NCBI RefSeq assembly: GCF_000015045.1
Contig: NC_008609.1
Coordinates: 3,833,501 to 3,897,500 of the forward strand
Source: Pelobacter propionicus DSM 2379
GTDB taxonomy: Bacteria; Desulfobacterota; Desulfuromonadia; Geobacterales; Pseudopelobacteraceae
Direction: 5' to 3'
DNA: 64,000 nt
Shown piece by piece: positions 2,416 to 28,387 of the stretch; position 1 is the first letter of the stretch; the number at the start of each line of letters is the position of its first letter. The notes under the pieces were generated by a model that was not told the DNA's origin, did no database searches, and saw only the letters and a program-made list of their open reading frames with translations. The position numbers and the translations under genes were made by a program.

Positions 2416-2418
2416 ATG

Positions 2419-2739: not shown

Positions 2740-2835
2740 GTCGTCACCAGCGAAGCGTAGTCTTTTGTCACGCTATTCTATAAATAGCAAACAGTCCGTG
2801 AGGTCAAGCGTTTTTTGACGCCCGCAACGCCGTTT

Positions 2836-4189: not shown

Positions 4190-4218
4190 TTGACACCGGA
4201 ACGCCAATCATCTAGTTT
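4190..4218 (+). promoter_or_regulatory. Sigma-70-type promoter of the thiamine operon
   Basis: A perfect -35 TTGACA at 4190-4195 is followed after 17 bases by TAGTTT at 4213-4218. Transcription would start near 4225, just ahead of the first paired element of the TPP riboswitch, which supports this assignment. The -10 match is only partial. Confidence 0.55.
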
Positions 4219-4227
4219 ATCTGAAAA

Positions 4228-4312
4228 ACGCTGGGGGAGTTTCGACTGAGAGCAACCGTTTACGGTTGCGACCCTTAGTACCTGATCCGGGTAATGCCGG
4301 CGGAGGGAAGCG
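4228..4312 (+). ncRNA. TPP (THI-box) riboswitch
   Basis: The thiamine pyrophosphate aptamer is recognised from its conserved core in order: GGGGGAG near 4233, CTGAGA at 4246-4251, ACCC near 4271, ACCTGATC near 4280, GGGTAATGCC near 4289, and GCGGAGGGA to about 4308. It sits 58 bases upstream of thiS and is followed by an intrinsic terminator. Binding of TPP is expected to favour that terminator and reduce expression of thiS-thiG-thiE. The context (thiazole synthesis genes directly downstream) confirms the assignment. Confidence 0.96.
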
Positions 4313-4330
4313 CATGTTATCAACACTTAC

Positions 4331-4352
4331 AAGCCGCTTCTGCGGCTTTTTT
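4331..4352 (+). terminator. Riboswitch-controlled terminator before thiS
   Basis: The 7-bp stem AAGCCGC/GCGGCTT with a TTCT loop is followed directly by a T-tract. It lies between the TPP aptamer and the thiS start, so it is the likely expression platform. Confidence 0.88.
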
Positions 4353-4369
4353 CGTTTCTGGAGAAAAAA

Positions 4370-4570
4370 ATGATCATAACCGTTAACGGCAAGGCGACCG
4401 ACGTGAAGGATGGCTGCACCATCGGCCAGTTGCTGGAGCAACTGGAGATCAAGCGGGACCGTGTCGCGGTGGAGGTCAATCTGGACATCGTGCCCAAGGC
4501 TTCCCACGATTCCCATGCCCTGGCTGCAGGGGATGTCATCGAGATCGTTCAATTTGTTGGCGGCGGCTAG
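4370..4570 (+). CDS. thiS: Sulfur carrier protein ThiS
   Basis: A 66-residue ubiquitin-fold sulfur carrier. Its C-terminal Gly-Gly (ending QFVGGG) is adenylated and converted to a thiocarboxylate that donates sulfur for the thiazole ring of thiamine. The protein starts [15 protein letters not shown] and has the normal family length. It is the first gene after the TPP riboswitch, 62 bases ahead of thiG. No thiF (activating enzyme) or thiH/thiO (glycine or tyrosine branch) gene is in this window, so these must be elsewhere. Confidence 0.96.
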
Positions 4571-4632
4571 GACATCCTGCCCGGCTCCCCCCTTTTCTGT
4601 CCATCGATATTGCGAAAAAGGAGAACACGAAC

Positions 4633-5409
4633 ATGGCTGAAGACAAACTTGTGATTGCCGGACGTGAATTCAACTCGCGCCTGATGGTGGGAACCGGCAA
4701 GTATGCCAGTTTCCCGCAGATGGCCCAGGCCCTGGAGGCGTCCGGGGCAGAGATCGTCACCGTCGCCGTACGGAGGGTCAATATCTCCGACCGCAGCCAG
4801 GAATCGCTGCTGGATTACATCGACCCCACGAAGTATACCCTGCTGCCCAACACCGCCGGATGCTACACCGCCGACGATGCGGTGCGCACCTGTCGCCTGG
4901 CCCGCGAGGCCGGCCTCTCCGATTTCGTCAAACTGGAGGTGCTGGGCGACGAGAAGACGCTCTTCCCTGACAACGAGGAACTGCTCAAAGCGGCCGCTAT
5001 CCTGATCAAGGATGGCTTTACCGTGCTCCCCTACTGCAGCGACGACGTGATCCTCTGCCGCAAGCTGGAAGACCTGGGCTGCGCCGCGGTCATGCCGCTG
5101 GGCGCCCCCATCGGCAGCGGCCTGGGGATTCGCAACCCCTACAACATCAGGATCATCATGGAGAACGTCAAGGTTCCGGTCATCGTGGATGCCGGGGTCG
5201 GTTCCGCCTCCGATGCCGCCATTGCCATGGAGCTTGGCTGCGATGGCGTGCTGATGAACACCGCCATTGCCGGCGCCCAGGATCCCATCGCCATGGCCGA
5301 GGCCATGAATCTGGCGGTGAGGGCCGGCCGCCTCTCCTACAAGGCAGGCCGCATCCCGCGCAAGCTCTACGCCAACGCCTCCAGCCCGCTGGATGGGATG
5401 ATCGGCTGA
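4633..5409 (+). CDS. thiG: Thiazole synthase ThiG
   Basis: A 258-residue TIM-barrel enzyme that condenses deoxyxylulose-5-phosphate, dehydroglycine and the ThiS thiocarboxylate into the thiazole phosphate. The sequence is typical throughout: [11 protein letters not shown] near the start, [32 protein letters not shown] and the phosphate-binding [14 protein letters not shown]. The start ATG has an AAGGAG ribosome site. It ends in TGATG, overlapping the thiE start by one base, so translation is probably coupled. Confidence 0.97.
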
Positions 5410-6080
5410 TGTCGACCGTTTCCCGGGGTGAAGGACAATCCCGTTGCGTTGATTTTTCACTGTACCTGATCACCGACCGGCGTCAGACCGCCGGTCGGCC
5501 TCTGCTGGATGTCGTAGCCGCCGCCCTCAGGGGGGGCGTCGGGGCGGTGCAACTCAGGGAGAAGGACCTGCCCGACAACGAACTATTAGAACTGGCCCGT
5601 GACCTGCGGCGCCTGACGCACGAACACCATGCCCGCCTGCTGATCAACCGCAGGGTGGATGTCTGTCAGGCGGTGGGCGCCGACGGCGTTCAGCTGGGAA
5701 TCGAAGGGCTCTCCATAGTCGAGGCGCGGCGGTTACTGGGCGATGGCCCGCTGATCGGCTATTCGGCCCATGCCGTGGAAGAGGCCCGCAGGGCAGAGGC
5801 TTCTGGCGCGGACTTCGTCACCCTCAGCCCGGTATATCACACCCCTTCCAAGGCCCCCTTCGGCGAACCGCTGGGGCCGGACAGACTGGGGGAGGCCTGC
5901 GGGGCCCTGGGCATTCCGGTATTCGCCCTGGGGGGCATCAAAGGAAGCACCATCGCCCGGGTCATGGCAGCCGGAGCCCACGGCGTCGCCCTGATCTCGG
6001 CCATCACGGCAGCCGCCAACCCCGAAACCGAGGCAGCATCCTTACTACAGACGATCGAGCAGCATGAAACCCTTTCCTGA
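5409..6080 (+). CDS. thiE: Thiamine-phosphate synthase ThiE
   Basis: A 223-residue TIM-barrel enzyme that joins the pyrimidine pyrophosphate and thiazole phosphate to give thiamine monophosphate. Typical motifs are LYLITDR near residue 18, VQLREKD, INRRVDVCQAVGADGVQLG, the pyrophosphate-site segment SPVYHTPSK, and FALGGI. The start used is the ATG in the TGATG overlap with thiG; the N-terminal about 14 residues before the conserved core are unremarkable. The 3' end overlaps the following radical SAM gene by 17 bases. Confidence 0.96.
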   Translation: MSTVSRGEGQSRCVDFSLYLITDRRQTAGRPLLDVVAAALRGGVGAVQLREKDLPDNELLELARDLRRLTHEHHARLLINRRVDVCQAVGADGVQLGIEGLSIVEARRLLGDGPLIGYSAHAVEEARRAEASGADFVTLSPVYHTPSKAPFGEPLGPDRLGEACGALGIPVFALGGIKGSTIARVMAAGAHGVALISAITAAANPETEAASLLQTIEQHETLS

Positions 6081-7525: not shown

Positions 7526-9202
7526 GAGTCTGTCGGGCTTGACCTCAGGGGCGCCCTCTTTTGTGGCCAAGCCGATTAAAAAAGTTCCGTATGTGTTCGT
7601 CTTCCCACCGGCAACCTGGTTAATTCAGCCCTTTCAGCGATGACTGCGGTTATTACAGGCTGATTTTCGCTATTTCTCATTCTATCCGGCCAAGACATGC
7701 AGCCGTTTGATGTTGTAGGCCATGCAGACGAGGTTCCATTCGCCTTTTACTGCTTCAAAGCCACGAAGAAGAAAGCTTCTGAATCCCATGACCGCCTTGA
7801 TGATGCCGAAGACCGGTTCCGAGGTGACTTTTCGCTGGGCGTAGATCGCCTTGCCGGAAGGTGTCTTCAGGCGATGCTTCATTCTGGCCACGGAATCGGC
7901 ATCTTCGGGTAACGGCGGCGGTTCGGCAAAGCGCTCCATCAGTGGCACGTTGTGACTCTGCCGGTCTACGGCAATGTAGGGAGTTATCCCGTTCTCCTCA
8001 CAGGCAGTTACATTGGTTTCGCTGAAGTAGCCACTGTCAGCTACCAGATCGGTTGCCTTGCCAAGCTTCTCAGGCAGCGCCGCCAGGTTCTCCAGGGTCG
8101 GTGTCAGCTCCTGTTTGTCATTGGGATTCTGGGTAACATGGGCCGAAACGATGAGCTTTGATGCTGTATCCACACCGGCCTGGGCGTTGTAAGTCTGCTC
8201 GAATCCGCCACCGGAGGTCGGCATGATCCGCGACTCTTCATCGGTCAGATTGACCTGATCTTTGGCAGTGGGGCCGGATTTGGGCGGTTTCGGCTCTTTC
8301 CCCTTGGCCTTCTTGCCCGTTGCCTGCTCCTTCTTGGCCCGTTCGGCGACTTTCTTCTCATAAGCGGCCTGTTCACGAGCATGGCGCTCAGCGGCTCGTT
8401 TTTCGATCTCGACCTTGGCTGCGGCAATGGCGGAAAGACGCTTTTCCCGACGTTCCAGTTCTTCGGGGATGTTCATGCCGTCCGGAATATCGGCACGGTC
8501 CGCTGCCTCGGCCTTTTTGAGCAGTTCGCCAACCTCAGCCTTGATCTGCTCTTCAAGCTTGCAGGCATGCTCATAGCTCAGCGCCTTGTGCTTGGAGGCG
8601 TTCGCCTTGATTTTGCTGCCATCCAAACTAACGTTGCCCAGTTTCAGCACCTCCATCTGATGAGCGATCAGCAGAATCTGGGCAAACAGCTTGTTCAGTT
8701 GCGGCAGAAAACGCCGGCGGAAGGTGGCAATGGTATCGTGGTCAGGATGACTGTTTGCCGCTATGAACCGGAATGCCACGGAGTCGTAGGTGCTGCGCTC
8801 AAGCTTCCGGCTGGAGAATACGCCTGTCGCATAACCGTAAAACAACAATGCTACCAGCATCTCAGGGTTATAGGGCTGCGAGCCTCGGCCGGCATAGGTA
8901 GCTTTCAAAGAGCGCAGGTCGAGCTGTTCGACAATTTCGACCACAAACCGGGCCAAGTGCTTTTCTGGTAGCCAATCCTGCAGCGATGGCGGGAGCAGAT
9001 AGGGTGTTTCCCGGTCAACTTCAATAAACTTTGATTTCATAGTCAACCCCGATACCTAACCAGTTGATATTACCGGACAAATATACGGGATACACCAAGA
9101 AAACGCAAGCTAAAGCTGACGACTTATTCAATAAATACAGCAGGTTAACCAATTGAAAACGCCCTGGAGATGACGGCTGAATGCGTTAAGCCCGACAGAC
9201 TC
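7526..9202 (-). mobile_element. IS1182-family insertion sequence, copy 1 (1677 bp)
   Basis: Perfect terminal inverted repeats of at least 15 bp (GAGTCTGTCGGGCTT at the left, its complement at 9188-9202) enclose one transposase gene. Both flanks carry CTAG (7522-7525 and 9203-9206), a 4-bp target duplication. The ends are defined by comparison with the second copy at 40045-41721, which has the same length and identical transposase sequence. The element interrupts an HD-GYP response regulator gene and is in the same orientation as it. Confidence 0.95.
7682..9040 (-). CDS. IS1182-family transposase (copy 1)
   Basis: A 452-residue transposase (DUF772 N-terminal domain followed by a DDE domain) that cuts and joins the element's ends. 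DDE-type segments include VSLDGSKIKANASK and LVADSGYFSE. A long Lys/Glu/Ala-rich linker lies at about 190-260. The ATG at 9040 is preferred because GGGG lies upstream; a TTG two codons earlier is possible. It is intact and identical to the second copy, so it may be active. Confidence 0.95.
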   Translation of the reverse strand: MKSKFIEVDRETPYLLPPSLQDWLPEKHLARFVVEIVEQLDLRSLKATYAGRGSQPYNPEMLVALLFYGYATGVFSSRKLERSTYDSVAFRFIAANSHPDHDTIATFRRRFLPQLNKLFAQILLIAHQMEVLKLGNVSLDGSKIKANASKHKALSYEHACKLEEQIKAEVGELLKKAEAADRADIPDGMNIPEELERREKRLSAIAAAKVEIEKRAAERHAREQAAYEKKVAERAKKEQATGKKAKGKEPKPPKSGPTAKDQVNLTDEESRIMPTSGGGFEQTYNAQAGVDTASKLIVSAHVTQNPNDKQELTPTLENLAALPEKLGKATDLVADSGYFSETNVTACEENGITPYIAVDRQSHNVPLMERFAEPPPLPEDADSVARMKHRLKTPSGKAIYAQRKVTSEPVFGIIKAVMGFRSFLLRGFEAVKGEWNLVCMAYNIKRLHVLAG

Positions 9203-9985
9203 CTAGCAACGCGGATAGTCTCGACAAAATCGCTGTTCATTCCCAATTCACCCGCCAGCAGTTCCGCATAGAGCCCGATACGTGCGATATGTTTCCCCGT
9301 GTCCTCATCCCTCAGTTCCGCCGCTGAGGTCAGGCGGGAAATCGTCTCCATGCTCATGCTCTTCAACTTGCCCAGAGCATCGGCCAGCTCGGCTGAACGC
9401 AGAACAACCGTCCATTCCAGCTCCTGCCGATAGCTCTTCTCGATATTTTTCAGCCGTCGATAATTGATACCCCTCTCGATGGCGTGCAGCAGGTACTCGT
9501 TCTTGAAAGGCTTGACGATGAAGTCATAGGCTCCTTTCTTGATCGCGGAAACCGCCAGATCGAAACCGGGGAAAGCGGTTATCAGAATGACCGGTGCTTC
9601 ACTGTCCCGCCGGCGAATGGCCTCCAACAGTTCCAGGCCGTCCATGCCGGGCATGCACACATCGCTCAGGAAGACGTCAACATGAACCGCATCCATGGCC
9701 TCGAGGGCAGATTCCCCGTTGGAAAAGGGGAGCACACGATACCCGGCCAGGGAGAGAGCCGTATCAAGGTACTGCAACACCAGCGGATCATCATCGATGA
9801 CAGCAATCAGCCCCTTGGCTGCTCTAATCAAACAGGACCTCCTCGGCGTCCGGCGACTGGACGGCTTGTGCCCAGTCGCTCCGGAGAAGCAAAGGATTCA
9901 TTAAATACGATTTGTCGTCATGTGTGAATCAGTGCAAGTCTCTATCACAGGTGGGAAAAGAGGAGAAAAACACGTAGGAGGATTC

Positions 9986-10633
9986 CTACAGGGTAAGCCC
10001 GTTCTGAATGCAGTAGTTGATGATATCGGCCGTGCTCCTCAAGTGAAGCTTCTCAAGAACCCGCGTGCGGTAGGTGCTGACGGTTTTCACGCTCAGGGAG
10101 AGTTCCCTGGCAATCTCGGTCAGCGTCTTGCCGGCCGCCATCATGCAGGCCAGCTGATACTCGCGATCCGAGAGGGCATGGTGCAGCACTGCCGGCTCTG
10201 CCCCGTCGCAGAGGGCATCGGCCAGCAACTCGGCCTGGGAGGGGGTCACGTAGCGCCGACCAGCCAGCACCTTTTCGATCGCCTCCTTCAGCACAACCGC
10301 CGCGTCACCCTTGTTGACATAACCGGAGGCCCCTGCCCGCAAGGCCCTGACGGCATAGTGCTCCTCGGGGTGGGTACTCACCATGATGACGGGCAGCCGG
10401 GGGTGCTTCTGCTGCAATGCCTTGAGCACGTTCAGGCCGTTTTGGTCCGGCAGCGAGATATCGAGCAGCACAAGGTTGTACTCGCACGAGCAGGCCATAT
10501 CCAGGGTCTGTCTCCCGGTGCAGGCCTCATGGAACTCCACGGGCTGTTCCAGGATATCCTGCAGGACCCTGATCACTCCCTGCCTGACGATGGTGTGGTC
10601 ATCAACAATCAAGATTCTCTTCACGACATTCAC
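9986..10633 (-). CDS. NarL/LuxR-family response regulator
   Basis: A 215-residue two-domain regulator. Receiver residues 1-120 include the acidic pocket DD at 11-12, the phosphoacceptor Asp58 (LVLLDISLPDQNG) and the conserved Lys in GYVNKGD. The C-terminal LuxR-type helix-turn-helix (LTEIARELSLSVKTVSTYRTRVLEKL) binds DNA. Its ATG overlaps the end of the upstream histidine kinase gene by 4 bases, so the two form a cognate pair. A 154-base gap with a hairpin (8-bp perfect core GCGACTGG/CCAGTCGC) separates it from the HD-GYP gene. Signal and targets are unknown. Confidence 0.93.
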   Translation of the reverse strand: MNVVKRILIVDDHTIVRQGVIRVLQDILEQPVEFHEACTGRQTLDMACSCEYNLVLLDISLPDQNGLNVLKALQQKHPRLPVIMVSTHPEEHYAVRALRAGASGYVNKGDAAVVLKEAIEKVLAGRRYVTPSQAELLADALCDGAEPAVLHHALSDREYQLACMMAAGKTLTEIARELSLSVKTVSTYRTRVLEKLHLRSTADIINYCIQNGLTL

Positions 10634-12099
10634 TCCCCGCTCTGCAGCGGAACCGTCACGCGCAGCAGCGTACCGCCTCCCTCTGCTCCGCCAACGGTCA
10701 GCTCTCCCCGGCAGATCCGGGCACGCTCCTGCATCCCCATCAGGCCGTAGGCCTGCGGCGATTCGATCTCCTCCGGCCTGATGCCGCGACCATTGTCCCC
10801 AATCTCCAGCACGAGTTGGCCGTCCCGTTTGCAGAGCGAGACGCTGACCTCCGTGGCGCGGGCATGACGGAGAACGTTGGTGAGCCCCTCCTGGACTATG
10901 CGCATAACCGCGGTTGCCAGCTGCGGCTCAAGGGGGTCGACCTCCTCGTTGAGCATGACGAAACACTCGATGCCGCTGCGCCTGCTGAATTCAGCCACAT
11001 GCCAGTCGATGGCGGCGGCGAGCCCCAGGCTGTCCAGCAGCGGCGGGCGCAGATCGGCGGCGATCCGCTGGACCGCCGAGGTCAGCTGCTCGATGTTCCA
11101 GCGCATCTCGTTCACCCGTTCTTGCACGGCGCTCTCTTTCGCCGGCAGCCTGTGCGCAATCCATTCCAGATCCAACTTCAGCACGGTCAGACTCTGTCCG
11201 ATCTCGTCATGGATGTCGCGCGCCATGGCGAGCCGTTCCCGCTCCTGGACCGTCTGCAGATGATCACTCAGGGCACGCAGCTTCTGGTTGAGCTCCACCA
11301 GCTGCTCCTCGGCCCTGACACGCTCGCTGATGTCCCTGAACAGCCCTTGCATGATGCTCATCTCTCCCACCCGGGTGACGGAGTGTTTGATGTGCACCGG
11401 GATCCTTCTGCCGCTCTTGGAGACAACGATCGCCTCGGCGTTGTCAACCTCTCTATGCTGGGCAACGGTCCTCCTGAACTGGGCGGCGAAATGCTCCGCC
11501 ATCTCGGGAGGGTGCAGAACCGTCTGATGCCTGCCGATGATCTCCTCACGCGGCAGCTCCAGCATCGCTTCGGCGGCCCGGTTGCAGTTGATGAGTATGC
11601 CGCTGTCGGCGTCGGCCCAGAAGATGGCGTCCGAGGCCCCCTCGAAGGTCATCCTGAATTTCTCCTCGCTCTGCTGCAGCAGGAGTTGGGACCGCTTACG
11701 TTCGCTGATATCGCGACTGATGCTGACGACCGAACTGATCGTGCCATTGTCGGACAGTTCCGGAATCAGCTGGCACTCGTAATAGATCAGCCTGCTGTCC
11801 GGCGCGGGGTAGGTGAATTCAATCTGCCGCGCCTGTCCGGTATCCCACACCGAATGCAGTGCAGCATCCCACTGCTGCACCAGCTCTTCCGGCATGCCCA
11901 GGTCGCGGTTGGTCCTGCCGATGAAGAATTGCCATGGTTTTCCCGTGACCGCCTCGATGGAGTCGGAGACATAGATATGGCGGAGAGCGCGGTCGAAGCG
12001 CGCCACCACCGTGTCAGGCAGCCTCGATGCCAGGAAATGAAAGGTATCTTCACCCCGTTTGCGTTCACTCTCCATCCTCAGGGTTCGTTCGGACGCCAT
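10630..12099 (-). CDS. PAS-domain sensor histidine kinase (NarX/DegS type)
   Basis: A 489-residue kinase with no membrane segment, so cytoplasmic. Two PAS domains (about 20-135 and 140-262) are each followed by the usual linker (DISERKRS, DISERVRA). A HisKA_3 dimerisation domain carries the phosphorylated His297 (ARDIHDEIGQSLTVLKLDLEW), then an HATPase with EGLTNVLRHARA and DNGRGI. It overlaps the NarL-type regulator by 4 bases and starts 3 bases after the acyl-CoA synthetase gene. Ligand unknown; PAS domains might sense redox state or a small molecule, which is speculation. Confidence 0.93.
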   Translation of the reverse strand: MASERTLRMESERKRGEDTFHFLASRLPDTVVARFDRALRHIYVSDSIEAVTGKPWQFFIGRTNRDLGMPEELVQQWDAALHSVWDTGQARQIEFTYPAPDSRLIYYECQLIPELSDNGTISSVVSISRDISERKRSQLLLQQSEEKFRMTFEGASDAIFWADADSGILINCNRAAEAMLELPREEIIGRHQTVLHPPEMAEHFAAQFRRTVAQHREVDNAEAIVVSKSGRRIPVHIKHSVTRVGEMSIMQGLFRDISERVRAEEQLVELNQKLRALSDHLQTVQERERLAMARDIHDEIGQSLTVLKLDLEWIAHRLPAKESAVQERVNEMRWNIEQLTSAVQRIAADLRPPLLDSLGLAAAIDWHVAEFSRRSGIECFVMLNEEVDPLEPQLATAVMRIVQEGLTNVLRHARATEVSVSLCKRDGQLVLEIGDNGRGIRPEEIESPQAYGLMGMQERARICRGELTVGGAEGGGTLLRVTVPLQSGE

Positions 12100-17733: not shown

Positions 17734-18632
17734 TGCTTTCACCCCAACGATTGACAGAACAGTACCATGCCGCGGGAGAGCTGGACGCGGCCACCGTGAC
17801 AGCCTTCCGCCGGGCGATCTATCGCCACTTCCACGCCAACCCGCGCCCCATGCCGTGGCGCGAGACCAGCGACCCGTACCATATCCTGGTATCGGAGGTC
17901 ATGCTCCAGCAGACCCAGGTGGAGCGGGTCAAAGCCAAATACGCTCAGTTCCTGGAGACCTTCCCCACCGTCAGGCACCTGGCAACCGCGCCACTGGAGG
18001 AGCTGCTGCGACTCTGGCAGGGGTTGGGGTACAACCGCCGCGCCATCGCCCTCAAACGCTGCGCCGAACAGATCCATATCCTTCACGAGGGTAATTTCCC
18101 CACCACAATCCACGAGCTGCAGAACCTCCCCGGCATCGGTCCCTACACCGCCCGAGCCGTTGCCGCTTTTGCCTTCGGTCTGCCTGAACCCTTCATCGAG
18201 ACCAACATCCGCACCGTCTTCATCCACTTCTTCTTCCACAAACAAGAGGGGATCAGCGACCGCCAGCTCATGCCGCTGGTAGGGGCCACCCTGGACCATT
18301 CCGATCCCCGCCACTGGTACTATGCCCTGATGGACTACGGCGTACGGCTCAAGCAGCTGTACCCCAACCCGGGACGACGCAGCAGCCACCATGTGCGCCA
18401 ATCCCCCTTCAAGGGCTCCAACCGTGAGCTGCGCAGCCGCATGCTGCGGGCGGTCATGGAATGTCCCGGCATCCTGCCGGACGAGCTGGCAAAGGTGCTG
18501 GAGGCGGAAAGAGGTGCGGTGGAGAAGAACCTGCAGGCGCTGGCGCGGGAGGGGTTCGTGGAACAGCGGGGGGACGGATTCGGGATCAGAACGTGCACAT
18601 CACCCGGCGCACCCGATACTCCCCGCCGATGA
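17733..18632 (+). CDS. Divergent MutY/HhH-GPD DNA glycosylase without the FeS motif
   Basis: A 299-residue HhH-GPD protein. PWRETSDPYHILVSEVMLQQTQVERV (41-66) is MutY-like, and the helix-hairpin-helix is LPGIGPYTAR (132-141). Two features differ from classical MutY: the catalytic-Asp segment reads FIETNIRTVFI, with Glu156 where Asp is expected, and there is no four-cysteine [4Fe-4S] motif (Cys only at 110, 244 and 288). Instead, residues about 230-285 look like a winged helix. It is translationally coupled to uvrB (TGATG), suggesting a repair role. The last 47 bases overlap draT on the opposite strand. Base specificity is uncertain. Confidence 0.82.
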   Translation: MLSPQRLTEQYHAAGELDAATVTAFRRAIYRHFHANPRPMPWRETSDPYHILVSEVMLQQTQVERVKAKYAQFLETFPTVRHLATAPLEELLRLWQGLGYNRRAIALKRCAEQIHILHEGNFPTTIHELQNLPGIGPYTARAVAAFAFGLPEPFIETNIRTVFIHFFFHKQEGISDRQLMPLVGATLDHSDPRHWYYALMDYGVRLKQLYPNPGRRSSHHVRQSPFKGSNRELRSRMLRAVMECPGILPDELAKVLEAERGAVEKNLQALAREGFVEQRGDGFGIRTCTSPGAPDTPRR

Positions 18633-19383
18633 CCAGGTATTCCCCCTCCCCCTTCATGATGCTCCCCGGCAACAGATCGTTGTAGAAGAAGACCTTGCAC
18701 AACGGCACCCCCACCTCCCACACCGTGGAACCGAATTCCCAGGCCCGCTCCTCATCGGAGGTGAAGGAGACCAGGTTGTTCAGGCGCACGATCTGATCCC
18801 GCTTTCCGAGCTGTTCCAGAACGCTGTGCTCGCTGGCGTCATGGGTGCCGCGGAAGAGTCGAATGATCTGGGTGTGGGGAAATTTTCGGGGCAGCTCGAA
18901 CTGGCAGTACTCGTACAGCAGGTCCAGCTGGGAGTGGATGGCATTGGTGCGGGAGCTCCCCTTCATAACGTCAACGGAGAAGTCGAAGTAGGCCTCACCG
19001 TGGATGTCGGAGATAGGGGCGCGGTGAAAGGTGGGGGCAATGCCAATGCGGCTCTCCACCCAGCGTTTGAGCACCGCCCCCTCGATGGAGTTGGAGTCCA
19101 TCATCCAGCCGCGCAGGAAGCGCAGGTAGCTGTTCTTGATGCTCTTGCGGGCTGTGGGGGTGGACTGGTCCTGCCAGTGGTGCAGCTGGAACTTCACCGA
19201 CATGAAGTCGTTGAACACCAGGGCCCGCTCTTCCTGGGACGGGATTGTAACCAGCCTGTCGAACAGGAAGCGGTTCCCCTCCCTGACACCCTGGATCGAC
19301 AAGGGCTGCGGGTTTTCGTTGAAATGATGCGAGGCGATCACCCAGGGTGGAACAGAGCAGAAATTGAAGGAACCGTGGATCAT
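18586..19383 (-). CDS. draT: NAD+-dinitrogen-reductase ADP-ribosyltransferase DraT
   Basis: A 265-residue enzyme of the DraT family, which inactivates nitrogenase reductase (NifH) by ADP-ribosylating one arginine when ammonium or darkness/energy signals are received. The conserved body includes SIQGVREGNRFLFDRL, FMSVKFQLHHWQ, SIKNSYLRFLRGW and MDSNSIEGAVLKRWVESR-like segments. It is the last gene of the nifEN cluster (51 bases after the nifX-like gene), which supports the assignment. No draG (the reactivating hydrolase) is seen in this window. Its 3' end overlaps the MutY-like gene tail to tail. Confidence 0.93.
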   Translation of the reverse strand: MIHGSFNFCSVPPWVIASHHFNENPQPLSIQGVREGNRFLFDRLVTIPSQEERALVFNDFMSVKFQLHHWQDQSTPTARKSIKNSYLRFLRGWMMDSNSIEGAVLKRWVESRIGIAPTFHRAPISDIHGEAYFDFSVDVMKGSSRTNAIHSQLDLLYEYCQFELPRKFPHTQIIRLFRGTHDASEHSVLEQLGKRDQIVRLNNLVSFTSDEERAWEFGSTVWEVGVPLCKVFFYNDLLPGSIMKGEGEYLVIGGEYRVRRVMCTF

Positions 19384-20610: not shown

Positions 20611-23370
20611 TCAATTATGCGCCAGCTTCTGCGCCTCCTTGGCATTGGCCTGGAACAGGTTGGCCACCTCGAACAGCAGGTTCATGCTTCCCCGGTAGCC
20701 GACCCACATCTTCTGGTGGGCGCCCAGGCGGTCGAACACCGGCAGACCTGCCCGCAGGTGGGCGCCGATCTTCAGCCGTGCCGCAGCCTGGCGGCCGTTG
20801 CTGTTGGCCACCAGCAGGTCCACCCCCTGGGCGGCGGTCTCCAGATCCTCCAGGTCCCCCACAAAAACGTTGTCGCAGGGAAGGCTGTCCAGGCCACGGG
20901 TGCGGGTGGCGCTCAGTGCTGCCTGGATCTGGCAGCCCATGCCGGCCAGGAAGGTGGTCAGGCTCTTCAGGTTGTCCGACTCCAGGGCCAGGGCAACCCT
21001 CTTGGCGCCGAACTGGTAGTGACTGTCCACCATGGCGTCCATGAGGCGGCTGCGCCAGCGCTGCTGCTTCTCCGGGATGGGGCGACCGGAGAGTGCGCTC
21101 ATGGTCTCCATGAACAGGTCGGTCTCTCCCAGCCCGGAGAGAGAGGTAAAACCATAGGCCGGGATTGCGAATTTCTCCTTCATTTTCAGGGCAGCCCTGG
21201 CCAGGGAATCCCCCACGTAGATGGTGGCAACGCTGCGACCGGCCCGCCGGATGGCCTCCACCGCAATCCCGCCGGTGGAGAGGGGCGATACCTGCTCGTC
21301 GATGTGGCCGTCCATGGCGCAGGATATGTCCGGGATGGTCAGCACCGTCAGACCGAATTCCTCCATCAGCTCCCTGATCTGCTCCACGTCCGCCGGGGTC
21401 AGGTGGCTGCCGGGGAGCAGGTTGACCTGGCCGGGAACGGCCGTGCCCCCCTCGGGCAGGGTGGACAGGATCGCCTCAACCGCCGCGGCGTACCCCTCCT
21501 GCAGCGAGCCGCAGTAATCGGGGGTGGAGGCGTGGATGACCGGTGTGTCGGCCAGTTCCGGGTTTTCCCGGCGGAAGTGGACGATGGCGCTCTGCACGTC
21601 GTCCCCCATGGTTTCGGTCAGGCCCGAGGTCATCACCCCCACCACACCGGGGTGGAACTTCTCCATCACCCGCTTGATCCCCTGCTTCAGGTTCTCCCAG
21701 CCGCCGAAGATGGCCGACTCCTCGCTCATGGCGGTGGCATTCAGGGCGATGGACTCCTTGAAGTGGCGGGAGAGCTGCAACCTGATGAAGGTGGAGCACC
21801 CCTGGGCGCCGTGGAGGAGCCCCAGCATGTTGTCGATCCCCAGGTAGGCCAGGGTCGCCCCCAGGGCCGGCGAGTTCTTCTGGGGGTTGACCACCGCACT
21901 CTTGGTGCTGACCCTGACTCTTGAGGCGGAGAGATCCTCGGCCAGGAAGCGCTCGCCATGGCCGGCCACCTCCACCAGGTCTTCGGCCAGCTGGTCGGGG
22001 CTCTTCTCCCAGGGGGCCGGGGCGTTCAGGAGCGGCCAGATCGGGTTGTTCACCGTCAGGTCCAGCTGTTTGGCAAAGGTGACCATCCCTTCGTAGCCGG
22101 CGTAGGGGTGGCTGCGGCCATGATTGATGTCCAGGAAGGGGGTCTTGGTCTTCAGCGCCAGGAACTTGGTCTTGCCGCCGGCCACGATCAGGTCGGGCAT
22201 CTTCTCCCGCATCACGGCCAAAAGCCCCGCGGTGCTGGTATCCTCGATGATCCCGGCATCGGCGTGCATCAGCGCCTTCATGCGGTAGAAGTCCTCCAGG
22301 GTCGAGTTCTGGGTGCCGGCGGCCAGGATCTCCACCCCCAGCTCCCGCAGGGCGTTGACCATGGACCAGGTCTTGACCCCGCCGGTGAACAGCACCGCCC
22401 GTTTCCCCTCCAGCCTGGCCCGGTAGGGGGCGATGCGTTTGCGGCATTTTTCCTCTTCCTCTGCCAGGAGCTTCTCCACCCGGTCCTGCATGACCCGCTT
22501 CTCCAGGCCGTTGACCGTGTTGTCCAGCTCCCGGGCGATGTCGCGCAGCGCCTTGGCCGTGTCGGTCATGCCGTAGAATGATTCCTCCAGATAGGGCATA
22601 CCGTAGGTTTTCTGCATCTTCTTGGCCAGGTTGGTCAGGCTCTTGGAGCAGATGATCACGTTCAGCTTGGCCCGGTGGGCGTAGCGCAACTCCTCGAATT
22701 TCGCGTCTCCGCTGAAGCAGGAGAGGATCTGGATCCCCAACCGCTGGAACAGCGGCAGCATGCCCCACAGGTCGCCGGCAATGTTGTACTCGCCGATCAG
22801 GTTGATGGGGTACTCCCCCAGTTCAGGCGGCTCTGCCGTTCCGATGACATGCTTGAACATGATCTCCCCGGCCAGGCGGTTGCCGATGTTCTTGTCGCCG
22901 ATGAAGCCGGGGGCGTTGATCGGTATGACCGGCATACCCGCCTTGGGCTGGGCAGCCTTGCAGACCGCCTCCACGTCGTCGCCGGTCATGGCGGTGACGC
23001 AGGTGGCGTAGACGAAGATGGCCTTGGCCTGGTCGCGGTAGCGCTCGGCCAGGTCAAGTATGGCCTTGTACAGCTTCTTCTCGCCGCCGAAGACCACGTC
23101 GTTCTCCAGCATCTCGGTGGTGAAGCCGCGCCGGTAGAGCTGGGAGCCGGAGGAGCGGGCCCCGCGGTTGTCCCAGGAGTTGCCGGCGCAGGCGATGGGG
23201 CCGTGTACCAGGTGGATCACGTCGGTGATCGGCATCAGCACCACCCGGGCGCCGTCGTAGGCGCAGCTCCGCTCGGTCCCCTCGCCCGGCTCGGATTTCT
23301 TGCAGAACTTGGGGGCGCCCTTGTCGTGGGTGTCGCAATCGGTTACATCGTAGTAGTCAGGTTTTGCCAT
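20611..23370 (-). CDS. nifEN: Fused FeMo-cofactor scaffold protein NifE-NifN
   Basis: A 919-residue fusion of the two scaffold subunits on which the FeMo-cofactor precursor matures before insertion into NifDK. Residues 1 to about 480 are NifE, with cluster-binding cysteines at Cys36 (SCAYDGA), Cys61 (GPIACAG) and Cys124 (YATCVTAMTGDD). From about 488 the sequence is NifN (KSAVVNPQKNSPALGATLAYLG, then HGAQGCSTF). The ATG at 23370 has GGAG upstream and fits NifE N-termini; an in-frame extension 97 codons upstream runs through the leader hairpin and is rejected. Fused nifEN is known in Geobacter relatives. It heads an operon with nifX, ferredoxin, nifX-like and draT. Confidence 0.96.
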   Translation of the reverse strand: MAKPDYYDVTDCDTHDKGAPKFCKKSEPGEGTERSCAYDGARVVLMPITDVIHLVHGPIACAGNSWDNRGARSSGSQLYRRGFTTEMLENDVVFGGEKKLYKAILDLAERYRDQAKAIFVYATCVTAMTGDDVEAVCKAAQPKAGMPVIPINAPGFIGDKNIGNRLAGEIMFKHVIGTAEPPELGEYPINLIGEYNIAGDLWGMLPLFQRLGIQILSCFSGDAKFEELRYAHRAKLNVIICSKSLTNLAKKMQKTYGMPYLEESFYGMTDTAKALRDIARELDNTVNGLEKRVMQDRVEKLLAEEEEKCRKRIAPYRARLEGKRAVLFTGGVKTWSMVNALRELGVEILAAGTQNSTLEDFYRMKALMHADAGIIEDTSTAGLLAVMREKMPDLIVAGGKTKFLALKTKTPFLDINHGRSHPYAGYEGMVTFAKQLDLTVNNPIWPLLNAPAPWEKSPDQLAEDLVEVAGHGERFLAEDLSASRVRVSTKSAVVNPQKNSPALGATLAYLGIDNMLGLLHGAQGCSTFIRLQLSRHFKESIALNATAMSEESAIFGGWENLKQGIKRVMEKFHPGVVGVMTSGLTETMGDDVQSAIVHFRRENPELADTPVIHASTPDYCGSLQEGYAAAVEAILSTLPEGGTAVPGQVNLLPGSHLTPADVEQIRELMEEFGLTVLTIPDISCAMDGHIDEQVSPLSTGGIAVEAIRRAGRSVATIYVGDSLARAALKMKEKFAIPAYGFTSLSGLGETDLFMETMSALSGRPIPEKQQRWRSRLMDAMVDSHYQFGAKRVALALESDNLKSLTTFLAGMGCQIQAALSATRTRGLDSLPCDNVFVGDLEDLETAAQGVDLLVANSNGRQAAARLKIGAHLRAGLPVFDRLGAHQKMWVGYRGSMNLLFEVANLFQANAKEAQKLAHN

Positions 23371-23397
23371 GGGAGTTCTCCTGCCCGTCAACCGCTC

Positions 23398-23444
23398 AAA
23401 AAAAAAGGCGCCCGCACTCTTCCGCATCGAAGGTGCCTGGCGCC
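23398..23444 (-). terminator. Terminator/attenuator-like hairpin in the nifEN leader
   Basis: On the minus strand GGCGCC pairs with GGCGCC, and inside it GCACCTTC pairs with GAAGAGTGC (one bulged A) around a 6-base loop GATGCG; nine T's follow. This is a complete intrinsic-terminator form, placed between the predicted sigma-54 start (near 23483) and the nifEN start codon, where it would block expression unless relieved. Confidence 0.8.
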
Positions 23445-23490
23445 GTTGCCATTGATCGTTCGGTACTGTTTGTACTGCCTGTGCATTCCT

Positions 23491-23510
23491 TTTAGCACGT
23501 GCCGTGCCAA
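23491..23510 (-). promoter_or_regulatory. Sigma-54-type promoter of nifEN
   Basis: Read on the minus strand, TTGGCACGGCACGTGCTAAA has the -24 TGGCAC and a -12 GTGCT with exactly ten bases between the GG and GC pairs, as sigma-54 requires. The -12 box has G in place of the usual first T. Transcription would start near 23483, giving a leader of about 113 bases. I saw no clear TGT-N10-ACA activator site upstream. The rest of 23511-23831 holds nothing I recognise. Confidence 0.8.
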
Positions 23511-23831
23511 CGCAGCCCAAAAAGCATAACATGCCGAAAACAAATGAGTTTACCAGGATGAATCGCCCCCGCCCCCCTGGCAATGCCTGTTTTTTTTGCA
23601 CCCACTGCTGTTCCACCCCCACAGAGCAGATGCCATGGCCAGCCCGAAATAACAGCACCACTTGCGCTGCACGACGAATAACGTATTATTTCACGAGCGT
23701 TTACAGCGTTGGCAGAGAAAACGGGACGATCTGGCGCCCACAACGGGAATCCAGAGACAACTGTCTCTACAGCTGCCCACCAGTGCCGAAAAGAGCGGCG
23801 CTTTTGCGGCCAGTGAAGCACCGGCTTACCC

Positions 23832-25256
23832 ATGAAACAGGTTGACCTCGCACTGCAGCGGCTATCCCTCCTCACGGCCTGGAGTATTTCCCTGCTGATC
23901 GCCATGGGAGCGCCAGCGGCATATTATCTGGTGTCGTACCATAACCTGCGGAGTACGCTTGAATTACAGGCATTGCTGGCCATAAAAAGCATTGACGCTA
24001 TCATTGTTGCCAATCCGAAAATGTGGTATTTCGAAGAGGCGCGACTGTCCGAACTGCTTGAGCATCGTGCCTACGACGCTGTTTTAGAGAGAAAACGTAT
24101 CCTTGACGCCAGCGGTGCCGTCATCGCCAGCAACAACGTAACCATACCGCCGCCAGGTGTGTCGTACACTCGTGAGCTTTTCGATGCCGGCACCGCGATT
24201 GCCCGCATTGAGGTGTCCCGTTCTCTGCGTCCGTTGCTGTATATGGCGTTCCTGGTCGCCATCTGTTCAAGTATGTTTGCCGCACTGCTGTTTTTCGTAT
24301 TCCGCTTGCTGCCGATCCGAGTCATTCACCGGGCATTTCAGGCGCTGGCACGAAGTGAAAAGAAATACCGTTCACTCTACGAGACCATGAAAGAGGGGAT
24401 GGCGCTGCACCGGATGGATTGTGACGACAGGGGCAACCTGCACTCCCTGTCCGTGATCGATGTCAATCCCAGTTGCGCAGCCATGTTTGACCGTGATCCG
24501 GGCAGGATTGTCGGCGGCAACAGCATCACCCTGTTTGGCGATGGATTCAGCACGGTGCTCTCGCAACAGCAGCAACTTGAACAGGGAGATTCCATTTCGT
24601 TCGAACTGCAGCTGCCCGATACAGACAACCATTACATTGTGCGGGCTTTTTCTCCTGACCAGGGGGTGATTGCAACTCTTTTTGAAGATGTTACCGAGCG
24701 CAGAAAATCGGAACAGCAGATTCGACATATGGCGTATTTCGACCCGCTGACAGATCTTCCAAACCGCACGCTTTTCTTTGACCGCCTCAATCAGGCCATT
24801 GCCGCAGCAAACCGTGAACAGGCCAAGCTTGCAGTACTCTTTCTGGACCTCGATCACTTCAAGAGCATCAATGACACCCAGGGGCATGACATCGGAGATC
24901 AGGTGTTGATCGAGGTTTCCCGGCGTCTTCACCGACAGATCCGCAGCTGTGACACCCTGGCCCGCATGGGAGGAGACGAATTCGTCCTTGTCATCACCGG
25001 AATCGGAGAAACGCTGGATGCCAGTTGCGTTGCCCGGAAACTGATTGACTCGATCCACTCCCCCCTCAGTATCAGGGGCAATGAACTGCACATTTCCATG
25101 AGTATGGGGATTGCACTCTTTGCGGACAGTGGCGCCGATGCGGAAACACTCATCAAAAACGCCGACCTTGCGATGTATCATGCAAAAAAATCGGGCCGGA
25201 ATACGTACAGATTCTACTCACCGACCATGGGCTCCTCCTCTGCCCATGGAGGCTGA
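23832..25256 (+). CDS. Membrane PAS-GGDEF diguanylate cyclase
   Basis: A 474-residue cyclic-di-GMP synthase. Membrane helices at about 13-35 and 136-158 enclose a periplasmic domain of about 100 residues, resembling CHASE8-type sensor regions such as that of YfiN. A PAS-like domain (about 175-290, ending DVTERRKSEQQ) leads into a GGDEF domain. The active-site GGDEF is intact at 380-384, with the inhibitory RxxD site (RSCD, 371-374) five residues before it. There is no EAL domain. It is paralogous to the GGDEF-EAL protein at 26198-28387, with a periplasmic binding protein gene between them. Start MKQVDLALQR is the first in-frame ATG. Confidence 0.9.
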   Translation: MKQVDLALQRLSLLTAWSISLLIAMGAPAAYYLVSYHNLRSTLELQALLAIKSIDAIIVANPKMWYFEEARLSELLEHRAYDAVLERKRILDASGAVIASNNVTIPPPGVSYTRELFDAGTAIARIEVSRSLRPLLYMAFLVAICSSMFAALLFFVFRLLPIRVIHRAFQALARSEKKYRSLYETMKEGMALHRMDCDDRGNLHSLSVIDVNPSCAAMFDRDPGRIVGGNSITLFGDGFSTVLSQQQQLEQGDSISFELQLPDTDNHYIVRAFSPDQGVIATLFEDVTERRKSEQQIRHMAYFDPLTDLPNRTLFFDRLNQAIAAANREQAKLAVLFLDLDHFKSINDTQGHDIGDQVLIEVSRRLHRQIRSCDTLARMGGDEFVLVITGIGETLDASCVARKLIDSIHSPLSIRGNELHISMSMGIALFADSGADAETLIKNADLAMYHAKKSGRNTYRFYSPTMGSSSAHGG

Positions 25257-25346
25257 CAGGGGCTGAGACGACACCCAGGAGCGCTGAGATCCGTACTGCT
25301 CCAGGGCAATCCACTGCAGGTACGCGGGGAGAACGGAGGTGCTTGA

Positions 25347-26192
25347 ATGATGAAAATAACAACGTCCCCATGGGGCGCTTGGTGTGCGGCACTGCTTTTT
25401 CTGGTGCTTCCCACGGTATGCACGGCAGCCGATACGATCCGCATTAACGGCTCCGGCAACGCGCTCGACATGATGAGGCCGATGGTGGCGGCATATGAAA
25501 AGACCAACCGAGACGCACGCATCACCATGGAAAAACCGTTGGGTAGTTCCGGCGCAATCAAGGCGCTGCTGGCCGGCGCCCTGGACCTGGCGGTAACCAG
25601 CAGGACCATCAAGGCGGAAGAGGCGGCGAAGGGTGCCCGGGCCAGAACATACGGCACGACACCTCTGGTCATCGTCACGGGACATAACGTGGGCCTGGCG
25701 GACATCAGCACGAAACAGCTGGAGGACGTCTATGCAGGGAGGGTGAGAAAGTGGCCGAACGGGGAGCAGATCAGGCTTGTCCTGCGCCCCCGGGAAGATA
25801 CGGACACCAGGGTGCTGAGCAGACTCTCTCCCGGCATGGACAGGGCCATCTCCGCATCCCACGCTCGGCCGGGAATGATCGTCGCCATTACCGACCCGGA
25901 ATCATATCTGACCATAGCGAAAACGCCGGGAGGCATCGGGACGGCCAGCCTGAACAGCATCCTCACCCAAAAACCGCGTGTTACGGTTCTTTCGCTCAAC
26001 GGCGTCAAACCATCTCCTACGGCTCTGGCCAGCGGAACCTATCCCCTGGTCAAGGAGATCCATTTCATATTCACTGCCGTGACCCCGCCATCAACCCAGA
26101 GATTGATCGACTTCATCTTCTCACCCCAGGGGCGTGCCATAGCACAGAAAAACGGTGTGCTCGTCCTCCCCAGACCCGTGCCGAACAACTAA
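25347..26192 (+). CDS. Secreted PstS-like phosphate-type binding protein
   Basis: A 281-residue protein with a clear signal peptide (about 1-28, ending TVCTAA) followed by a phosphate-type periplasmic binding domain. IRINGSGNALDMMRPMVAAYEK near the N-terminus resembles the phosphate-loop segment of PstS, and LGSSGAIKALLAGALDLAVTSR follows. It has a good ribosome site (GGAGGT 6 bases upstream). No pstCAB permease genes accompany it; instead it lies between two related GGDEF genes, suggesting it is a sensor component of their signalling. Ligand unknown. Confidence 0.85.
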   Translation: MMKITTSPWGAWCAALLFLVLPTVCTAADTIRINGSGNALDMMRPMVAAYEKTNRDARITMEKPLGSSGAIKALLAGALDLAVTSRTIKAEEAAKGARARTYGTTPLVIVTGHNVGLADISTKQLEDVYAGRVRKWPNGEQIRLVLRPREDTDTRVLSRLSPGMDRAISASHARPGMIVAITDPESYLTIAKTPGGIGTASLNSILTQKPRVTVLSLNGVKPSPTALASGTYPLVKEIHFIFTAVTPPSTQRLIDFIFSPQGRAIAQKNGVLVLPRPVPNN

Positions 26193-26197
26193 CACCA

Positions 26198-28387
26198 TTG
26201 AATACCGGCCACATTTCCATACAGCAGTTTACCCAGGCCATGGCCTGGACTCTCTCGGCGATGATCACACTCCTGGCGCCGGCCACCTTTTTCCTGGTCT
26301 CCTGCGAGCACCTGCGAAGCGAACTCCACGTCCAGACCGAATTGAGCGCTAACGACCTGAGTGCTATGATCAGCTCCAATACGCAGTTGTGGAGGTATGA
26401 GGAGCTCAGGCTTTCGGAACTGCTACGGCGGCGGTCGAACAGTGTTGTTGCCGAGAGCAGAATCCTCTACGACATCGGCGGCGAAGTCATCGCCAGAAAT
26501 CGGCAACAGGTGTCCATTCCCCGTATCACGGACGTGCATGACATCTTTGATGCCGGAACTGCTGTTGCCCGCATCGAGGCTTCCCGTTCCCTAACCCCCC
26601 TGCTGCTCAGAACGTTCGCCGTGGCGCTCTGTTCGGCGATAATCGCCGCAGTAGTGTTTTACATGCTGCGTACGCTTCCCCTGCGCGCCACATCCAGGGC
26701 CTATCAGGCCTTGGACGAAAGTGAGAGCAAATACCGTCTGCTGTACGAAAGCATGCGGGAGGGGATGGCGCTGCACCACATGGATTTCGACGAAAACGGT
26801 GATTTTGCTGCCATCTCGGTTATCGACGCGAATCCGAGCTGCGCGGCCATGTTCGGCTGTGATCCGCAGACGCTCATCGGCAGCGACAGTATCGCGCTGT
26901 TTGGGGAAACCTTCCGGGAGTACCTCTCGGAGTTGCTGCGACTGCTGGAACAGGGCACCAGCATCCAGTTCGAGCTGACCCTGCCGCGCACGGACAACCT
27001 TTACAGCGTACACGCCTTTTCTCCCGACCACGGCTTGGTCGCCACACTGTTCGAGGATATTACCGAGCGCAGGAAATCCGAGCAGCAGATCCAGCACATG
27101 GCCTACTTCGACAGCCTCACCGATCTTCCCAACCGGGTCCTGTTTCTTGACCGCCTCCGGCAGGCCATAGCCCATGCACTTCGGGATGAGAATTCCCTGG
27201 CGGTGCTGTTCCTCGACCTGGACCGGTTCAAGGATATCAACGACACCCTGGGACATTCGGCAGGGGACCAGCTGCTGATCCAGGTCACCCGGCGCCTGGG
27301 GCGGCAGATCCGTTCCTGTGACACCCTGGCCCGCCTGGGAGGGGACGAGTTCGTGGTCATCGTCACCGATCTGGGTAAAAAAATGAACGCCACCCGGGTT
27401 GCCCAGGACCTTATCAATGCGATCCAGCCCCCCTTCCTGATCGCCGGACGCGAGCTGCACGTGACCACCAGCATCGGTATCGCGCTCTTCCCCGACGATG
27501 GCAATAACGCGGAAACGCTCGTCAAGCACGCCGATCTGGCAATGTATTCATCCAAGGAGTCGGGGCGCAACAGGTACAACTTCTACTCCGCCTCCATGAA
27601 CCAGAAGGCGCTCATGCGCATGGAGACCGAGGCCGGCCTGCGCAACGCGCTGGAACGGAGAGAATTTTATGTGGAATTTCAGCCCATCATGAATGCAGCT
27701 GACTCTACCGTTGTGGCTGCCGAAGCACTCGTGCGCTGGAACCACCCCACCCGCGGCAGGATTCCGCCAGACCAGTTCATCGACCTGGCCGAAGAAACCG
27801 GTCTGGTCGTTCCCCTGGGGGAATGGGTGCTGCGCACCGTCTGCTCGAGGATAAAAACGTGGAGCGATGCCGGACTCCCGCTGATCAGGTTTTCGGTCAA
27901 TGTCTCCAGCAGGCAGATCGAGCGGCAGGACTTCGCGGAAATCGTCAGGAACGCGCTGCGCGAATCGGGCGCCAACAGCGCCCAACTGGAGATCGAACTT
28001 ACCGAGAGCTGCCTGATCCGACACTCGGACACGAACATCAGCGATCTCTTCGGACTGAAGGAGTGGGGCGTTTCCTTCGCCATCGACGACTTCGGCACCG
28101 GCTATTCATCCCTGGGATATATCAAGACCCTGCCCATCGACCATATCAAAATCGACCGGTCGTTTGTCAGGGACATCAGCACGGACTTCCACGACCAGGC
28201 CATTGTGGAGGCGATCATCGCCATGTCGCAAAGGCTGGGCATCCGCAATATCGCCGAGGGGGTGGAGACCATCGAACAGGTCCGTTTCCTTCAGGAGCGT
28301 GGCTGCGAAGAGATCCAGGGGTACTACTTCCACCGCCCCCTGTCGGCTGAGGCGCTGGAGGAACTGCTCAGAGCCCAAGAAAACTAG
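26198..28387 (+). CDS. Membrane PAS-GGDEF-EAL protein
   Basis: A cyclic-di-GMP enzyme of about 729 residues with the same N-terminal layout as the protein at 23832 (two membrane helices around a periplasmic domain, then PAS) plus both catalytic domains. GGDEF is intact (LARLGGDEFVVIV), with an RSCD inhibitory site before it. The EAL domain also looks catalytic (AAEALVRWNHP, DDFGTGYSSLGY, IKIDRSFV). The start is uncertain: no ATG lies early in frame, so TTG at 26198, 5 bases after the binding-protein stop, is used; ATG at 26240 would remove part of the first helix. Translation is probably coupled to the preceding gene. Confidence 0.88.
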   Translation: MNTGHISIQQFTQAMAWTLSAMITLLAPATFFLVSCEHLRSELHVQTELSANDLSAMISSNTQLWRYEELRLSELLRRRSNSVVAESRILYDIGGEVIARNRQQVSIPRITDVHDIFDAGTAVARIEASRSLTPLLLRTFAVALCSAIIAAVVFYMLRTLPLRATSRAYQALDESESKYRLLYESMREGMALHHMDFDENGDFAAISVIDANPSCAAMFGCDPQTLIGSDSIALFGETFREYLSELLRLLEQGTSIQFELTLPRTDNLYSVHAFSPDHGLVATLFEDITERRKSEQQIQHMAYFDSLTDLPNRVLFLDRLRQAIAHALRDENSLAVLFLDLDRFKDINDTLGHSAGDQLLIQVTRRLGRQIRSCDTLARLGGDEFVVIVTDLGKKMNATRVAQDLINAIQPPFLIAGRELHVTTSIGIALFPDDGNNAETLVKHADLAMYSSKESGRNRYNFYSASMNQKALMRMETEAGLRNALERREFYVEFQPIMNAADSTVVAAEALVRWNHPTRGRIPPDQFIDLAEETGLVVPLGEWVLRTVCSRIKTWSDAGLPLIRFSVNVSSRQIERQDFAEIVRNALRESGANSAQLEIELTESCLIRHSDTNISDLFGLKEWGVSFAIDDFGTGYSSLGYIKTLPIDHIKIDRSFVRDISTDFHDQAIVEAIIAMSQRLGIRNIAEGVETIEQVRFLQERGCEEIQGYYFHRPLSAEALEELLRAQEN

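Follow-up and report, generated by a model that had tools for sequence, protein, structure and literature searches.

A PstS-fold binding protein adjoining a cyclic diguanylate receptor beside nifEN in Pelobacter propionicus

In a 64,000-nucleotide stretch of the Pelobacter propionicus DSM 2379 genome (contig NC_008609.1, positions 3,833,501 to 3,897,500; hereafter the window), three genes stand in tandem on the forward strand: A encodes a membrane diguanylate cyclase with a GGDEF domain, B a periplasmic binding protein with a predicted PstS fold, and C a membrane GGDEF-EAL protein (Table 1). We consider it likely that B and C form one binding-protein/receptor pair, that A is the receptor of a second pair whose binding protein has been lost, and that the module is related to nitrogen fixation (nif).

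A and C share their N-terminal architecture, with a transmembrane helix, a periplasmic receptor domain (approximately residues 36–133 of A and 36–132 of C), a second transmembrane helix and a PAS domain; these lead into a GGDEF domain with an RxxD site in A, and into GGDEF followed by EAL in C. The receptor sequences compared, FDAGTAIARIEVSRSL from one protein and FDAGTAVARIEASRSL from the other, lie within a region of 43% identity spanning both transmembrane helices and the periplasmic domain; identity is 53% across the N-terminal 303 residues, and both values are far above chance. TERRKSEQQI and GGDEF are present in both proteins, with RSCD five residues ahead of GGDEF in each, and C carries all of the stretches EALVRW, NVSS, ELTES, DDFGTG, KIDRSF, AEGVE and QG, which we take to be catalytic signatures of EAL domains. 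Pfam searches and alignment bear out what an initial annotation had described here, namely the tandem, the shared receptor domain with its quoted sequences, the PAS linker, the RSCD site and the intact EAL. The N-terminus of B is hydrophobic and, judged by eye, of the signal-peptide type. The start codon of C is most likely the TTG at 26198, because it gives 17 residues before the first shared Trp, as in A, and because it lies 5 bases past the stop codon of B. The module is flanked by nifEN on one side and on the other by a rhomboid gene, itself followed by a gene for a rubredoxin-like/FAD oxidoreductase; as already annotated, there are no permease genes beside B.

Conservation of the binding-protein and receptor pair

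Across the family defined by GTDB, 76 genomes were searched with B and with the N-terminal part of A. A receptor gene adjoins 39 of the 41 strong B homologs (E ≤ 1e-25) versus none of the 25 weaker matches, lying directly downstream on the same strand in 38 cases and directly upstream in one. The receptor side gives a matching count: an adjacent partner is found for 39 of 45 rows covering the receptor domain, a hand-picked set from which rows matching only the PAS and linker (query position about 133 onward) had been dropped, and the rest comprise A, three partnerless receptors and two rows near contig starts. A lone family locus (L068; G006:C22) has the reverse order, in which a receptor with a kinase-like motif comes first and the binding protein second.

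The pairing extends beyond the family. In a survey of 395 genomes of the phylum, where only the best 8 or best 6 candidates per genome were scored, all 22 B-profile matches of at least 175 bits lie beside a receptor; the next match scores 155 bits, and no match below 175 bits lies beside a listed receptor, as read off the coordinates. Six of the 22 fall in the family already counted and 16 lie outside it. A scan of genome contigs scored the next gene as a receptor in 32 of 33 loci, drawn from Geobacteraceae, other Desulfuromonadales, Syntrophus, Desulfobacteraceae, Holophagaceae and Nitrospirota; some of these loci duplicate those of the family survey (L088 = L050, L117 = L049), so the two counts are not additive. 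Many loci, L050 to L055 among them, show an overlap of exactly 4 bases between the binding-protein gene and the receptor gene. Pairwise distances of binding proteins and receptors correlate across 45 hand-picked pairs (r = 0.77, with none of 2000 permutations as high), a value that co-inheritance alone can yield. The receptor gene of L077 (G060, 2194–5792) is split, and the open reading frame (ORF) between its halves (4057–5274) reads as transposase-like.

Neighbourhoods were fetched to at most about 7 kb per side, less on short contigs. Those of the linked loci contain no PstC or PstA homolog; PstB-like ATPases occur elsewhere in them, as six ORFs of five loci and one ORF of a sixth. The conserved unit is the pair, a binding protein followed by its receptor, and not the trio: of the adjacency of three genes that the initial annotation had envisaged, the part joining B to a receptor holds across family and phylum, and the complete trio recurs at no other fetched locus. 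Because the receptor neighbour is inherited and no PstA- or PstC-like gene was found, the signalling role assigned to the binding protein in that annotation is the best reading of B, and a coupling of B to C appears well supported by genomics.

Origin of the three-gene layout

The layout of the trio is probably explained by what precedes A. The 51 bases before A, which translate as SAEKSGAFAASEAPAYP and a stop codon, very probably once formed the 3' end of a gene for a binding protein, and stop and start overlap as they do in intact pairs. They are identical at 34 of 51 positions to the ends of the partner genes of L049 and L052, and among the 127,898 51-mers of the window, both strands included, only this remnant reaches 34 against the L049 end. 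It matches the ends of other partners of A-type receptors at 25 to 30 of 51 bases, those of the more distant partners L063, L064, L101 and L110 at 23 to 25, and that of L058 at 20. The remnant is thus most like the ends of partners of A-type receptors.

In the receptor tree, A groups with L049 (99/98) and C with L050, L051 and L055 (99/97); because the tree separates them with support, A and C belong to two older subclades, and a recent duplication producing both is ruled out. B is tied to C by neighbour order, not by phylogeny, and has a long terminal branch (0.58–0.59). We also considered and rejected B as a chimera of both partner types, since 14 diagnostic columns divide into nine C-type, three A-type and two of neither type, without a clear point of transition between the types. 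Congener G058 (L049) has nifEN, then a binding protein, an A-type receptor, rhomboid and FAD oxidoreductase; the window has the remnant, A, B and C, in that order, between nifEN and rhomboid, which FAD oxidoreductase again follows. The simplest history is probably one of two tandem pairs in which the first binding protein was lost, leaving A orphaned and C as the neighbour of B. The remnant shows how an odd gene trio can come from gene loss. Another tandem pair may have decayed at L079 (G017), where a short stretch resembling a binding protein (9133–9426; 47% identity to B residues 3–47) is found at the receptor gene's end.

Loss of the first binding protein could have had a further consequence. 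In an account that we hold to be possible without favouring it, B was shared after the partner of A was lost and now controls two opposed receptors, A for synthesis and C for synthesis and breakdown of cyclic diguanylate (c-di-GMP). The genome encodes no second strong member of the B family (next match E 7.5e-9), A is intact in its GGDEF and RxxD, and both the long branch of B and its place between A-type and C-type partners would fit a shared partner. However, A belongs to a different receptor subclade from C and has the remnant of a partner of its own, one binding protein with two receptors is found at no other fetched locus, and the long branch has other possible causes. Under the history of two tandem pairs with B and C as the surviving one, A today would be a stand-alone diguanylate cyclase, its own binding-protein gene gone save for the last 17 codons, and would be either addressed by B or free of binding-protein control.

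Linkage to nifEN

The module stands head to head with nifEN in 10 of the 41 family loci with strong B homologs, with 315 to 462 bases between match ends, and the outputs at all ten are GGDEF or GGDEF-EAL. Clustering of neighbours across 55 loci likewise returned nifEN as a recurrent neighbour (8 loci under the cut-offs used). In the window, the fused nifEN is followed on the same strand by genes for two Nitro_FeMo-Co proteins and then DRAT (dinitrogenase reductase ADP-ribosyltransferase; 18586–19383, reverse strand), a gene that is near the module here and also in several relatives. We claim no significance for the linkage because the linked loci are related by descent; we nevertheless regard a link of the module to nitrogen fixation as likely. 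Lying opposite nifEN over a conserved control region, the module would probably have an input or an output that concerns nitrogen fixation.

It is conceivable, in our estimate less probable than a functional link, that the pair is a general nutrient sensor and that its proximity to nifEN is inherited synteny without functional meaning. The common descent of the ten loci favours such an account, as do the 31 of 41 family rows and all 16 examined loci outside the family that are not head to head with nifEN. Yet the arrangement persists where the binding protein is only 32% identical to B (L078, in G062), the outputs at the ten linked loci are without exception of the c-di-GMP type, and draT or nifX homologs lie within 6 kb at L069 and L082, two further loci from different subclades.

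The control region carries several sequence elements. A sigma-54-type promoter was considered and rejected, as a strict scan for it in the ten nifEN-linked intergenic regions returned one site only, on the forward strand of L052; a weaker TWGCAN7TGCCAA block at 23493–23510 (GG-N10-GC on the reverse strand, that of nifEN), recognised by eye first and counted afterwards, occurs in all ten nifEN-linked loci. Towards the module lies a conserved TGCCT...TGCAC stretch. The nifEN leader (23397–23444, reverse strand) would form a G+C-rich hairpin followed by nine U; hairpin and block are reminiscent of the leader termination control of Geobacter nif genes, and are candidates for such control. Between 23200 and 28800, sigma-70-like (3 versus 2.3) and terminator-like sites (3 versus 4.4) occur in chance number, with none in the gap between A and B.

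A number of observations weigh against the reading of B and C as one pair, A as the remainder of another, and the whole as a nif-related module. Among strong family homologs of B, that of G013 has no receptor alongside, and that of G019:C322 sits at a contig end. Receptors stand without an adjacent B-like gene in G047:C5, G022 and G003:C1 (3 of the 45 family rows) and, in the phylum sample, in G292, G423 and G348:C151; in G145 and G253, the receptor is paired with another type of binding protein. The remnant can be matched to C-type partner ends as well, at 23–25 of 51 bases after a 9-base shift and at 13 or 14 in register; we prefer an A-type origin because the A-type matches are higher (25–34) and unshifted. 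The position of B in its tree is unsettled, grouping with A-type partners (87/93) while the C-type clade is not rejected by the approximately unbiased test (p-AU 0.28). Finally, homologs of the nif neighbours in the window are absent from the 16 phylum loci outside the family.

Table 1. Positions of the genes and features discussed; coordinates are those of the window, or of the locus named.
Feature	Positions	Strand	Remarks
A: membrane diguanylate cyclase	23832–25256	+	474 residues; GGDEF 171.8 bits (Pfam)
B: periplasmic binding protein, predicted PstS fold	25347–26192	+	281 residues; PBP_like_2 109.6 bits
C: membrane GGDEF-EAL protein	26198–28387	+	729 residues; GGDEF 174.9 bits, EAL 247.3 bits
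Probable 3'-terminal remnant of a lost binding-protein gene	23782–23835	+	17 codons and TGA, the TGA overlapping the ATG of A
Asp151-Thr152-Asp153 of B	25797–25805	+	in place of the phosphate-contacting Ser-Gly-Thr of PstS
Fused nifEN	20611–23370	-	919 residues from the ATG at 23370; two Oxidored_nitro stretches (scanned with a longer start)
Control region between nifEN and module	23371–23781		first 164 bases 74% identical to the same region of congener L049
nifEN-linked loci			G000, G058, G015, G025, G033, G047, G027, G062, G032, G018
Diverged-receptor locus L184	1259–2434
Diverged-receptor locus L185	2228–3379

Ligand site, receptor domain and known systems

A structural model of B (mean predicted local distance difference test, pLDDT, 91.5) matches 4q8r with Z 29.2 and a root mean square deviation of 2.5 over 236 residues, and on this model B has the PstS fold; in sequence, B resembles PstS models at the subfamily level, below the model cut-offs, and its match to SBP_bac_11 is weak. 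We take Arg135, Ser139 and Thr141 of Escherichia coli PstS, with its Ser-Gly-Thr motif, to be the phosphate contacts. The Arg135 position is retained in all 69 receptor-linked proteins and in all 14 non-linked proteins used for comparison, a hand-picked set of mostly best-scoring non-linked matches together with the genome's own and the E. coli PstS. The Ser139 position is Asp or Glu in 68 of the 69 linked proteins and the Thr141 position is Asp in 56; the Ser139 position is Asp in 3 of the 14 non-linked proteins too. Two of these three PstS-fold proteins, both lacking Ser-Gly-Thr, are encoded directly upstream of other membrane-sensor-like ORFs (L168 and L171), which may point to a broader group of PstS-like proteins with a signalling role. 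Four tblastn matches of B in plasmid records have 22.7–23.8% identity; of the two examined, that of Ilyobacter falls in an annotated pst operon, and the matching stretch of a Vibrio campbellii plasmid is unannotated.

Since the canonical contact residues are replaced, phosphate, which the initial annotation had named as a possible ligand, is doubtful for B. A site made of Arg and Asp-x-Asp would suit a zwitterion; it is equally possible that the acidic residues do no more than pair with the Arg. We regard it as very improbable that B is an ordinary high-affinity phosphate-scavenging protein whose position between c-di-GMP enzymes is incidental. The PstS fold and the subfamily-level resemblance to PstS models speak for such a role, and against it stand the receptor pairing of 39 of 41 family loci versus 0 of 25 weaker matches, the missing permease genes, the acidic Ser139 position of the linked proteins, and a separate PstS in the genome (so labelled by reading) that keeps Ser-Gly-Thr and adjoins two permease-like genes.

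The same receptor N-terminus drives GGDEF, GGDEF-EAL or histidine-kinase outputs. GGDEF alone follows it in A (by Pfam) and in L049 and L050 (by motif), and GGDEF-EAL in C (by Pfam) and many others (by motif); kinase outputs comprise HisKA-HATPase in L056, hybrids with receivers in L058, L065, L102 and others, and a kinase-receivers-Hpt protein in L109. The histidine-kinase versions, like the nifEN linkage, had not figured in the initial annotation. No Pfam domain was found in the receptors of L067 (256 residues) and L069 (239 residues), and PAS only in those of L072 and L106. L067, L069, L070 and L071 have short receptors (239–281 residues), each paired with a binding protein, and in L069 a large 4HB_MCP sensor kinase (7559–11359) comes after the short receptor. 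Two diverged receptors (L141/L184 and L142/L185; 50 and 46 bits) each lie behind an overlapping gene for a different binding protein, that of L184 being of the Peripla_BP_6 family (LivK-like); the L184 and L185 proteins resemble each other. These pairings suggest that binding proteins use the receptor domain as a docking module.

The predicted structure of C residues 1–180 (mean pLDDT 85.1) consists of a long helix, a short helix, an antiparallel sheet and a second long helix. It matches WalK (4ywz, Z 10.2, 112 residues), the LapD ortholog CdgS9 (4u64, Z 9.9, 117 residues) and CitA/Cache-type domains, the top match being an integrative WalK–YycH model (Z 12.6); Foldseek E-values are weak, with just one below 0.001. 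On these predictions, the domain between the two membrane helices has a Cache/PAS-like fold. Scanning 33 members revealed no named Pfam sensor family in the receptor domain, and no PDB sequence matched the receptor profile up to E 1. Conserved receptor residues were rejected as a docking signature, as the Trp/Arg-Leu motif is also kept in several partnerless receptors and is non-discriminating.

Taken together, a working model for the B–C pair emerges. B would bind a small solute in the periplasm, and its ligand-dependent conformation would dock onto the Cache/PAS-like periplasmic domain of C, presumably a dimer; the second membrane helix and the cytoplasmic PAS domain would relay the signal, and C would shift between c-di-GMP synthesis and breakdown. 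A more specific proposal, which we think unlikely in its entirety, is that the module belongs to the nitrogen-fixation programme of the Geobacterales and that its ligand, perceived through the rebuilt Arg and Asp-x-Asp site of the PstS fold, is a nitrogenous and possibly zwitterionic solute from outside the cell; in this genome, gene loss would then have left two receptors of different output to a single sensor protein. The input of many diguanylate cyclases is unknown, and more than 50 linked pairs (39 in the family and 16 outside it in the phylum sample) are offered here. A single receptor domain serves cyclases, cyclase/phosphodiesterases and histidine kinases in these pairs, so a soluble protein is all that is needed to look for the ligand; and because module and nifEN stand head to head, a tie between nitrogen fixation and c-di-GMP can be put to a direct test.

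Activation of receptors, cyclases and phosphodiesterases among them, by solute-binding proteins is an established principle (PMC9602780, PMC11113362). By analogy, B–C is most like NspS–MbaA of Vibrio cholerae, described in Sinorhizobium meliloti too, as the closest worked-out model: there, a periplasmic binding protein (PBP) with a signalling role governs how far a membrane GGDEF-EAL receptor leans to synthesis or to breakdown (PMC8967002, PMC9993111), and whether MbaA produces c-di-GMP or degrades it depends on the occupancy of NspS (PMC8967002; also PMC11575326). As in that system, the B gene adjoins the gene of a membrane GGDEF-EAL receptor, and the pair is conserved in relatives; the receptor N-terminus described here, unlike that of MbaA, drives histidine kinases as well. 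NspS is of the PotD-like binding-protein family and binds polyamines, whereas B matches PBP_like_2, with no PotD-type family in its Pfam scan, and no polyamine link is known for B–C.

Other systems are more distant. YfiBNR, in which a periplasmic protein controls a membrane diguanylate cyclase, had been suggested by the initial annotation as the model, and NspS–MbaA is closer: B has no YfiR-type Pfam family up to E 0.1, no OmpA-like YfiB gene lies beside it, nifEN and the rhomboid gene being its flanks, and the receptor domain matches no Pfam family. In AioX/ArxX/ArrX (XSR), a binding protein of oxyanion-binding kin is the first signalling component, with a membrane sensor kinase (PMC5908839). 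XSR systems combine PhnD-like proteins, kinases and arsenic ligands, whereas B is a PBP_like_2 protein with a GGDEF-EAL receptor and has no PhnD-type Pfam family up to E 0.1. With PstS of PstSCAB, B shares the predicted fold; pstC and pstA, however, are not near B, and the Ser-Gly-Thr contact motif is Asp-Thr-Asp. In ScrABC of Vibrio parahaemolyticus, the predicted periplasmic binding protein ScrB works with the GGDEF-EAL receptor ScrC, a likeness to B–C at the level of general description. For domains within enzymes, a review of c-di-GMP inputs names SBP_bac_3 as the only member of the PBP clan studied in c-di-GMP networks (PMC8846402). In the openly licensed literature we recognised no report that pairs this receptor, or c-di-GMP enzymes at a nif locus, with a PstS-like protein, which is no proof of absence. 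Set against known systems of this kind, what is new here is the PstS fold with an altered site, the receptor domain without a Pfam name, the exchangeable outputs and the linkage to nifEN.

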